DNA from: Bacteroidales bacterium
GTDB lineage: Bacteria; Bacteroidota; Bacteroidia; Bacteroidales; UBA1715
Assembly: GCA_017516865.1 (NCBI GenBank)
Contig: JAFXAU010000031.1
Location: 1-64,000, forward strand
Direction of reading: 5' to 3'
Length of the DNA: 64,000 nucleotides
Both the position numbers and the translations under genes were made by a program. The notes beneath the pieces are model-generated. The model was not told where the DNA came from. It saw only the letters and a list, made by a program, of their open reading frames with translations, and did not search any database. Below are positions 40,107-41,809 of the stretch, in pieces (within the stretch, counting starts at the first letter, position 1; every line of letters starts with the position of its first letter).

Positions 40107-41012
40107 TTACCGAACAACAACCTTCACCGTTTCCCCTTCTGCAACCACAAAATACACCCCTGCCTTGAGGTTTGCATTTGCGATTTTCTGACCTGAAATT
40201 GTTACCACAAATGCTGGTGCTTCGCCGTTCAGAAAGATTTGGTTGTTGGAGATAGTTATTTCCGCATTAGTAGAAACCTCGGGAATAGCCGTAGTACCAC
40301 ACATGATATGTTTGAACGAACCCCAACAAGTGTGTGTTTCGTATGCTTCTCGGCTCTCGCAAGGAATATACAGATAGCCATTGTAATTGTCGAAAGAATT
40401 TGAATATGCCTTTGGCGGTGTAGTTGCCAAACACGTTACATTTATTAGATTGGGACAATCTTCAAAAGCTTGTTCCTCAAGCTCTGTAATACTGCTAGAA
40501 ATAGTTATTGAAGTTAAAGAAGTACTCTGAATCCAATCAATAAACGTAACACTACGAGGAAATATTATTGAAGTTAATGTATTATCCCCAATATGTCCAA
40601 CATATGTAACTGTTTCTGGTATAGTTATTGAAGTTATACCTCCTTCGCCATCATTTTTTCCACCAATATCCCAAATTTCAGTCACAGTATATGTTTTTCC
40701 ATTGTATGTGACAGTTGCAGGTATATCACATTTGCCACCAAGAGTATTTTTTACATAAGAAATCCATGCATCTTTAGTTAAAAATTCTCCACCAGACATA
40801 ACAGCAACACAGTTTTCTGGCAAATTCCAATCCTTTTTACTATTTCCTGTAATGAATGTAAGATAGCCTAAATCAAAATATTCGTAGCCATCATAATCTA
40901 TCGATAATTCACCTAGATAATCTTCATATGACCATCTGCTATAGCCTTCATACTTGGCCCACACGCTACTTGCTACAAATAGAGTGAGGAAAAATGTAAT
41001 TAACTTTTTCAT
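40107..41012 (-). CDS. secreted BspA-type leucine-rich-repeat protein with T9SS tail
   Basis: A 301-aa protein: signal peptide MKKLITFFLTLFVASSVWA, an N-terminal domain of about 85 residues, then BspA-like LRRs (ITSITIPETVTYVG, LTSIIFPRSVTFID, LTSITISSSITELEEQAFEDC) and a loop region CLATTPPKAYSNSF. The last about 45 residues are a Por-secretion/type A sorting domain (AFVVTISGQKIANANLKAGVYFV). It is predicted to be secreted by T9SS and anchored on the surface, perhaps as an adhesin. It is 7 bases downstream of the 87-aa gene, so co-transcribed with it, inside the block that splits rnf. Confidence 0.88.
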   Translation of the reverse strand: MKKLITFFLTLFVASSVWAKYEGYSRWSYEDYLGELSIDYDGYEYFDLGYLTFITGNSKKDWNLPENCVAVMSGGEFLTKDAWISYVKNTLGGKCDIPATVTYNGKTYTVTEIWDIGGKNDGEGGITSITIPETVTYVGHIGDNTLTSIIFPRSVTFIDWIQSTSLTSITISSSITELEEQAFEDCPNLINVTCLATTPPKAYSNSFDNYNGYLYIPCESREAYETHTCWGSFKHIMCGTTAIPEVSTNAEITISNNQIFLNGEAPAFVVTISGQKIANANLKAGVYFVVAEGETVKVVVR

Positions 41013-41019
41013 ACTGTTA

Positions 41020-41283
41020 CTATTTTAAAATTGTATTACTTTGAATTAACGTACTTATTGGATTAAAATTCCTTTCCCCAGAATTTTCAAGCCCTAATTG
41101 TTTTTTTACTTGCTTCCCAATATTTTGATTAACTTTATTCAAACCTTCTTGCTCAACAAGTTCAAGATATTTCTTCATCAAGGTTCTATCATTCTGTATC
41201 ATTAAGAAAATTGAATCTGTAATTGAATTAGGGTCTTTATACCTATTCAATACTTCTGCCACAAATGTTTCTAATTTCTCCAT
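41020..41283 (-). CDS. 87-aa conserved-looking cytoplasmic protein
   Basis: An 87-aa all-helical protein with no signal or TM: METKLE-like start (MEKLETFVAEVLNRYKDPN), then SITDSIFLMIQNDRTLMKKY, a Lys/Gln-rich middle and ISTLIQSNTILK at the end. I recall near-identical short proteins in many Bacteroidota, annotated as hypothetical, but cannot name a function. It lies 15 bases after the 65-codon frame at 41299-41496 and 7 bases before the LRR protein gene on the minus strand. The high apparent conservation suggests a real protein and perhaps a shared mobile context. Confidence 0.75.
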   Translation of the reverse strand: MEKLETFVAEVLNRYKDPNSITDSIFLMIQNDRTLMKKYLELVEQEGLNKVNQNIGKQVKKQLGLENSGERNFNPISTLIQSNTILK

Positions 41284-41298
41284 TTTATTTAACTTTTT

Positions 41299-41496
41299 TT
41301 ATTTTCTCCACCTACTTCTTGTTAACCGACTTTCGGAAGCGTCGGAGTACCTCAAAATCTGTTCACATACGCACATAAAAAAAGCGTGGTACTTTGTTTT
41401 TTTCGTTATCTTCGGATTCTTGAGGTTCTCGACTACCTTGGTTAACCAAATCAAACAGAACAAAGTCCACGCAAACTGCGTGAACGTCCCTATCAT
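41299..41496 (-). CDS. 65-codon ORF overlapping a structured element, doubtful
   Basis: The frame reads MIGTFTQFAWTLFCLIWLTKVV and ends in a basic SRLTRSRWRK. It has one possible TM helix near the N-terminus. The DNA below it is rich in palindromes and an inverted repeat (41384-41482), so the frame may be fortuitous over an RNA or DNA structure. Alternatively it is the first gene of the operon with the 87-aa and LRR genes. No -7 box was found upstream of it. Confidence 0.3.
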   Translation of the reverse strand: MIGTFTQFAWTLFCLIWLTKVVENLKNPKITKKTKYHAFFMCVCEQILRYSDASESRLTRSRWRK

Positions 41497-41510
41497 AATC
41501 TTGGTTAACC
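41321..41510. repeat. structured element with three GTTAACC boxes and nested palindromes
   Basis: GCGTGGTACTTTGTT (41384-41398) pairs with AACAAAGTCCACGC (41459-41472) across 60 bases. Inside lies the perfect palindrome TTGGTTAACCAA (41438-41449), and next to it CACGC-AAACT-GCGTG (41468-41482). GTTAACC occurs at 41321-41327, 41441-41447 and 41504-41510. This looks like a folded RNA leader or the end of a mobile element; no match to a named family is claimed. Confidence 0.55.
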
Positions 41511-41809
41511 GTTAGAGATTCAAAAATGAAATTGTCGAGATTTCAAAAGAATCCAAGATTCAACTAAAAACGCTTCAATTATATATTGTGCTTACTATTT
41601 CTACTGCTTCATAGGCAAAAGGATTAAAATTTTCACTAATTCGTTTTTACAAAGATAGAAAAATTACCTGATTTCGTTCCTATTGTAACGAAAACAAATT
41701 TTACGGTGATTGGAAATCAATATCAAAAAACCACCCCGGTCTCGATTCAACGATACAAGAAAATTGCTTATATTTGTAAACAAAATAGACAGAAATTAAA
41801 AACGTCGAT
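41497..41809. other. gene-free stretch upstream of rnfG
   Basis: No ORF is supported. It holds the last GTTAACC box, a small TTTCGTT/AACGAAA hairpin near 41675-41696 and the rnfG -7 box at 41769-41776. Confidence 0.5.
41769..41776 (+). promoter_or_regulatory. -7 box TATATTTG of rnfGEA
   Basis: Perfect TAnnTTTG match 33 bases before ATG 41810. It gives the separated second half of the rnf operon its own promoter. Confidence 0.6.

Follow-up and report, generated by a model that had tools for sequence, protein, structure and literature searches.

Within the window, which term denotes here the whole 64,000-nucleotide stretch of DNA that we analysed, an 87-aa gene whose protein has no Pfam match at E ≤ 0.01 lies on the minus strand, followed by a second gene and preceded by a region rich in palindromes (Table 1). 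The original prediction had pointed, between 41299 and 41510, to an inverted repeat, a perfect palindrome, a short hairpin, and three GTTAACC boxes; and all of these are indeed present: the repeat (41384-41398 with 41459-41472) comprises 14 pairs plus one bulged base, the palindrome TTGGTTAACCAA occupies 41438-41449 and the CACGC/GCGTG hairpin 41468-41482, and the boxes are found at 41321, 41440, and 41503. GTTAACC taken alone occurs at chance level across the window (7 found vs. 7.01 expected), and two of the three boxes are the strands of helix C. The palindromes are the helices of one large minus-strand RNA, the leader of the 87-aa gene. The extent first proposed encloses those features, but the RNA itself runs on the minus strand from ~41640 and is one of many copies.

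The 3' end of the RNA, AAGAAGTAGG, is located 27 nt upstream from the ATG of the 87-aa gene. At the other end the transcript would start near 41640-41645, as judged from the position of the predicted -7 box, for which we saw by eye no clear -33 TTG in the window copy. The minus strand of 41305-41650 folds at -87.2 kcal/mol, compared to -72.8 (sd 5.1) for shuffled sequences (z -2.83), only 1 of 100 dinucleotide shuffles being as stable; and the fold of this single sequence already contains P2 and the helices A, B, C, and D. The AUG that follows the U7 run opens a 25-codon frame (41299-41376, minus strand; MCVCEQ...) that stops 15 nt short of the start codon of the 87-aa gene, while in the genome G004 the corresponding frame continues into the first gene.

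A 65-aa ORF over the palindromes had been considered doubtful, a judgement that the homologues bear out: of 94 homologues, 6 keep the matching frame open over the 40 codons upstream from the U-run AUG, while 8 and 9 keep open the two alternative frames, and we conclude that the ORF is no gene because its frame is no more open than those two. In addition, the lengths of the cores modulo 3 are evenly spread (62/59/52), and we discarded a coding sequence.

Table 1. Features of the leader RNA and its surroundings (window coordinates)
Feature	Position	Strand	Basis or remark
Predicted promoter -7 box, TATCTTTG, TAnnTTTG type	41650..41657	-	Sequence; motif class enriched upstream of homologues
Whole leader RNA, about 330 nt	41311..41643	-	Ends at AAGAAGTAGG; homology and fold
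P2 5' strand, AAAAAGCG in most homologues, TTGAAGCG here	41571..41578	-	Pairs with CGCTTTTT; 96.9% of cells paired in alignment A2
Helix A 5' strand, sequence variable	41543..41557	-	Complementary to 41413-41423; 98.2% paired, 7 of 8 pairs double-changed
Helix B 5' strand, CTCGAC	41534..41539	-	Partner 41428-41433; 99.6% paired
Helix C 5' strand, a GTTAACC box	41500..41511	-	Partner 41436-41450; duplex energy test
Hairpin D, CACGC-loop-GCGTG	41468..41482	-	95.0% paired
D3' strand, right arm of the inverted repeat	41459..41472	-	Partner: hairpin D or E
Helix C 3' strand, with the TTGGTTAACCAA palindrome	41436..41450	-	Sequence, duplex energy, fold
Conserved AGGTA-GTCGAG-AACCT	41423..41438	-	B 3' strand between AGGT and ACCT; small hairpin possible in second fold
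Helix A 3' strand	41413..41423	-	Covariation
E strand, AACAAAGTACCACGC, left arm of the inverted repeat	41384..41398	-	Partner: D3', or P2 5' and F 3' for parts of it
U7 run, directly 3' of E, then AUG	41377..41383	-	Sequence
F 3' strand, GAGGTACT	41346..41353	-	Pairs with AGTACC of E; 6-mer permutation test
3' hairpin CCGAC...GTCGG	41326..41345	-	Fold and sequence
87-aa gene, first after the RNA, exchangeable	41020..41283	-	ORF
301-aa BspA-type LRR protein, second cargo gene	40107..41012	-	PF13306, E = 2.1e-7; signal-like N-terminus by eye
rnfD-rnfG insertion	38998..41810		Loci L085, L086, L087 filled; L088, L089, L090 empty

Distribution of the RNA

The nucleotide search suggested by the original prediction did find other copies: BLASTN recovered two more in the own genome (E below 1e-7), and copies in 6 of 7 genomes of the genus and 18 of 295 of the order, the own genome counted. 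With a covariance model, R1, built from an alignment of 33 copies, the core was detected in at least 150 of 393 genomes of the order, belonging to at least 90 of 207 genera (E ≤ 0.01, own genome counted), which figures are lower bounds since the best six candidates per genome were scored. At E ≤ 1e-4, again with the own genome counted, the core was present in 60 of 295 genomes of the class Bacteroidia and in 29 of 296 of the phylum, two of the latter being outside the class and weak. A deep R1 search of 15 chosen genomes yielded 3 to 26 matches in each, with 14 in the own genome, and an exact-pattern scan of the named genomes gave at least 119 stretches. Most of the named hosts are MAGs; among the matches listed, Bacteroidales MAGs prevail, many from the gut of ruminants or horses. 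Some matches are situated a few hundred bases from a contig end (e.g., G022:C497:302-477, G180:C120:233-403, and G076:C564:172-344) and look as if they were beside repeats that break the assembly.

Membership in a known RNA family was rejected: neither the window nor 16 loci taken beyond the order reached the gathering threshold of any Rfam 15 family, and at E ≤ 10 there were only four matches, all far below threshold, that with the best E-value being to 6A RNA (18.7 of 41.2 bits). Neither tRNA nor tmRNA was found in the window. We also set aside a phage or plasmid element, as viral contigs contained no match to one exact pattern, plasmids none to two single-sequence queries, and phages none to one; which queries could miss divergent copies because they were an exact pattern or single sequences and not covariance searches. 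In the literature, the passages covered of PMC2864571, PMC9723704, and PMC8040213 contain no description of the leader RNA, and PMC11109978 and PMC8632094 contain none of the Bacteroidetes motif names looked for. A fragment of the RNA may figure in a published catalogue. The leader RNA would thus appear to form a family absent from Rfam, for which we found no description in the literature covered.

Promoter, following genes, and exchange of cargo

The consensus of the Bacteroidota-type promoter is TTG-N17-21-TAnnTTTG. In the 250-nt stretches upstream from the 154 cores for which so much sequence was available, this consensus matched 65 times, compared to the 1.7 expected from base shuffles, and the -7 boxes peaked 70-90 nt upstream from the core. 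The short -7 box alone occurred 140 times in sense and 54 in antisense, about 24 being expected from base shuffles.

On the downstream side, 154 of 173 unique cores were followed within 160 nt by the start of a same-strand ORF of 60 or more aa, the remaining 19 having no usable downstream gene; the divergent side had such an ORF in 35 of 173 cases, and random points in 541 of 1000. A MITE or a transposon end, which would be free in its orientation, was discarded on this sense-to-divergent comparison. According to a simple hydrophobicity rule, 123 of those 154 ORFs start like a signal peptide; the same rule selected 3 of 35 ORFs on the divergent side, 66 of 541 at random points, and 208 of 761 further ORFs belonging to the named loci, or 188 of 605 when the background consisted of ORFs of 100 or more aa. 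The genes after the RNA would therefore encode mostly exported or envelope proteins.

For the assignment to families, 27 of the 154 proteins were removed by hand (near-duplicates, fragments, long proteins, and four more). Among the 127 left, Pfam returned mainly families seen once and no dominant one, BspA-type LRR (LRR_5; 7 proteins), the T9SS sorting domain (4), and PEGA (4) being among the most frequent, so that a single conserved protein partner was rejected. PADLOC, for its part, returned 32 families, and, because each of the 25 listed occurs in a single protein, defence is not the theme and a leader of defence genes was likewise dismissed. Unlike the members of most riboswitch regulons, these genes have no pathway evidently in common. 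A SusC-like frame, as read from the translation, lies roughly 200-270 nt downstream from the RNA in three loci beyond the order (L274-L276); and in those three, together with L285 and L288, a divergent XRE-type gene, recognized by eye, is located upstream from the RNA.

The link to the 87-aa gene that the original prediction had envisaged is not supported: the RNA heads many unrelated genes, and in G004, where the RNA end and the second gene are those of the window, a different gene occupies the place between them.

Several RNA copies of the own genome are followed directly by an XRE-like protein of ~70 aa, a name based on likeness by eye and on weak Pfam HTH_3 matches in relatives, two of which fall narrowly short of the threshold of 23 bits (22.2 and 21.2) while a third has no HTH_3 match. 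A search of 60 genomes with one such protein yielded 28 loci, in 19 of which the RNA precedes the gene, in the same orientation, by at most 100 nt; in the own genome it does so in 9 of 11. Of the 9 loci without the RNA directly upstream, one had it 1 kb upstream. In some copies (L331, L346, and L350) the gene starts at the very AUG that adjoins the U run; the genes next after the XRE-like gene often look, by eye, exported or lipoprotein-like.

The window copy is part of an insertion between rnfD and rnfG. Three of the seven genomes of the genus have 3-6 nt between these two genes; in the other four the gap is filled by the RNA (one copy armless), differing cargo, and, at the far end of the insertion, either a HigBA-like pair (by eye) or a KilA-N gene (PF04383). 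Between the window and G004 the homology extends up to the RNA end, is lost over the first gene, and returns at the second gene; elsewhere, several breaks occur just after U7-AUGUGC, while either the start or the C-terminal end of the second gene is shared between loci whose remainder differs. As read from these comparisons, the alternation of shared and differing segments is that of a mosaic recombination, with breakpoints that are not at a single base. Among the ORFs read around the window's insertion we saw no integrase or transposase. Other RNA loci of the genus (L091-L095 and L098) adjoin, by eye, zeta-toxin-like, MNT/HEPN-like, PIN-like, and RhuM-like genes. The suggestion that the palindromes mark the end of a mobile element stays unproven, with cassette exchange beside the RNA and the insertion between rnfD and rnfG in its favour, and with the absence of a transposase or integrase among the ORFs read there and the fixed orientation of the RNA to its gene against it.

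Pairing and alternative folds

RNAalifold, applied to a MAFFT alignment of 33 copies, predicted 24 consensus pairs, of which 18 have changes on both sides; the loci L052 and L063 were left out of these first alignments, and L055, an unrelated match, was dropped throughout. Over 109 model-aligned matches, the four modelled helices paired in 97.3% of the cells vs. 86.1% in shuffles, with double changes in 21 of 31 pairs and 395 double-changed cells vs. 98.0 in shuffles; furthermore, sliding the partners by 1-3 columns reduced the pairing to 39-54%. When all column pairs were submitted to a G-test, those of helices A and B ranked at the top (104 of the 109 rows, in an alignment fitted to the model structure, as are both A2 and A4). 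The 5 lowest-scoring rows, two of which are antisense matches, were excluded from that test and from the counts on P2 and the AGGTA region, and were kept in those on the four helices, D3'-E, and AGGU/ACCU.

Two helices were assessed by permuting the partners. Helix C, which is outside the model, had a matched duplex energy of -10.95 kcal/mol compared to -5.02 after permutation (n = 153, with 20 of 173 cores not parsed); of two control pairs for which no pairing was expected, one reached z -8.4 and the other -0.8, from the former of which values we conclude that relatedness inflates permutation tests of this kind. Helix F, formed by E with the strand downstream from U7, had perfect 6-mers in 55 of 160 cores (13 of 173 not parsed), while 200 permutations gave a mean of 15.0 and a maximum of 23. 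As to the strand, G-U cells outnumbered A-C cells by 254 to 26, or by 163 to 25 once one mostly U-G pair was removed, and therefore the gene-sense strand is the one that folds.

Both of the characters first surmised for this DNA thus gain support, the structured RNA strongly, from double-changed pairs in excess of the shuffles, and the regulatory leader from position, promoter motif, and sense-strand bias: a conserved structure on the sense strand, close to a start codon and behind a promoter motif, would be that of a cis-regulatory leader.

The D3' strand has two possible partners, D5' inside the nested arm, or E; and D3'-E, which in the window is a 14-bp helix abutting the U7 run, crosses helices A, B, and C. 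Judging from the lengths, the stretch that joins A3' to E seems in several copies to be too short for the two folds to exist together. Within the exported subclass, 92.4% of the cells of D3'-E are paired vs. 91.1% in shuffles, which figure is largely due to near-constant bases; a stronger indication is given by 13 double-changed cells vs. 4.1, reached by 0 of 500 shuffles, while 49 of 500 reached the number of further pair types. In the XRE subclass, for which 18 of 19 loci were parsed, D3'-E extends up to 26 pairs, with a matched duplex energy of -23.2 vs. -16.9 after permutation (0 of 500), and of -13.4 vs. -9.8 without the constant ends (0 of 500, n = 18). The helices of that subclass are paired in 90.4% of the cells, with 143 double-changed cells vs. 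40.3, in a count that includes five weak or antisense matches; P2 is poorly kept there (74.9%). The small AGGU/ACCU hairpin is weakly supported, since 93.2% still pair when slid by one.

Up to U7, the window transcript folds at -66.6 kcal/mol with the arm and at -54.8 when D3'-E is forced; the arm being 11.8 kcal/mol better, the second fold would need kinetics or a factor. The terminator-like helix has, moreover, a long loop of about 60 nt. A clean deletion has removed the A-D arm in its entirety from the copy of the genome G003 (L085, 6990-7190), in which P2 (with one altered base), E, U7, and F are kept. In terms of sequence evolution, the two folds, which exclude each other, both have support; and the RNA would have the makings of an attenuator—two exclusive conserved helices, one of them terminator-like and followed by a U run—most strongly in the XRE subclass.

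Interpretation and comparison with known systems

We propose, with a probability of roughly 0.6, that the element is a cis-acting leader RNA that controls the following genes by switching between two folds in the manner of an attenuator. In fold 1, P2 (A5GCG with CGCU5) would close the nested arm of A, B, C, and D, in which state D3' and the U7 run would be held. In fold 2 the arm would open, D3'-E would form a terminator-like helix directly before U7, and AGGU/ACCU would build a small hairpin in the loop; if the RNA polymerase read through, E would then pair with the downstream F. The choice of fold might be made by a signal that conserved residues near helix B recognize, and the genes under control would be mostly those of exported or envelope proteins, in part along with a small XRE-like protein. 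At the level of sequence comparison, this reading is backed by the conservation of the structure, by its strand, position, and promoter motif, and by the evolutionary support that both folds have; from these we infer the switching inside the cell, the stop of transcription by fold 2, and a ligand or a protein as the decider.

Somewhat unlikely, though the most serious competitor, is a control of translation, in which P2 would mask the bases before the AUG after U7 and the fold would decide on the entry of the ribosome. That AUG is found within 1 nt of the U run in 129 of 234 cores, and XRE-like genes do start at it (L331, L346, and L350); but the exported subclass has its likely starts mostly further downstream, the AUG after the U run opens a short frame (median 12 codons), and P2 is weakest precisely in the subclass whose gene begins there. 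An improbable alternative would be a trans-acting small RNA ending at U7, with the gene behind it being only partly its read-through product: a promoter motif in front and a helix with U7 behind do give the look of a complete small-RNA gene, against which stand the short distance and fixed orientation to a start codon (154/173 vs. 35/173), the need of helix F for bases beyond U7, and the start codon that in the XRE subclass can directly follow the U run.

We hold it quite improbable that the element serves mobile cassettes as a place of recombination or insertion, acting either as folded DNA in the manner of attC or as a transposase guide RNA. The differing cargo behind a conserved upstream flank would agree with such a site, as would the frequent breaks of homology just after U7-AUGUGC and at the RNA 3' end, the rnfD-rnfG gap, which contains an insertion in 4 of 7 species and none in the other 3, and the recombinase or IS genes among the cargo (L219; L044 and L119, IS3-like by eye). 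Nevertheless, no integrase or transposase was read in the window's insertion, the exact-pattern and single-sequence queries gave no viral, plasmid, or phage match, the G-U bias favours one strand, the gene orientation is constant, and the shared segments take in the signal peptide of the second gene and its C-terminal end, which is what ordinary homologous recombination would produce. Highly improbable, finally, is a function as DNA only, with the inverted repeats as operators for the XRE regulators: XRE-like genes adjoin the element and palindromes such as TTGGTTAACCAA are there, but helices A and C vary and yet stay complementary over 50 nt or more with many G-U pairs, and a complementarity kept despite sequence change is therefore not conservation of the operator type.

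Beyond the switching leader RNA itself, we would advance as a tentative conjecture, one that we would not yet back at even odds, a widespread riboswitch-like class of the Bacteroidia that places an open-ended and fast-exchanging set of exported proteins under one signal, with the RNA as the hinge of the swaps and the XRE-like protein as its partner in one form. The leader RNA, large, strongly covarying, and carried by more than a third of the order's sampled genomes, would rank among the more abundant uncharacterised RNA classes of the Bacteroidia and would offer a handle on which surface proteins these bacteria display. The aptamer-like core makes the search for its signal directly testable, and the armless copy of G003 would serve as a natural, ready-made variant without the A-D arm.

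Weinberg et al. (2010; PMC2864571) report structured RNA candidates confined to Bacteroidetes, the Bacteroidales-1 RNA among other motifs. Those motifs that bear Rfam numbers, to which our comparison extends, have no match to the window or to the 16 other loci. With riboswitches and transcription attenuators the RNA shares its position as a leader, two exclusive folds with evolutionary support, one helix followed by a U run, and conserved residues in internal loops between variable helices; in contrast to them, it is without an Rfam 15 match in the loci scanned, occurs in unusually many copies per genome, and precedes genes unrelated by pathway. Riboswitches and attenuators are leaders in which a terminator and an antiterminator exchange. 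The c-di-GMP riboswitches occur in many copies per genome ahead of genes for surface and secreted proteins, in both of which aspects they are alike to the leader RNA, whereas in the scanned loci every Rfam family, theirs among them, stayed below threshold. In integrons, attI and attC represent a constant folded element beside exchangeable genes; and, although the leader RNA differs in standing on the 5' side with its own promoter, in the absence of an integrase among what was read in the window's insertion, and in its scattered breakpoints, it likewise constitutes a constant folded element beside genes that are exchanged.
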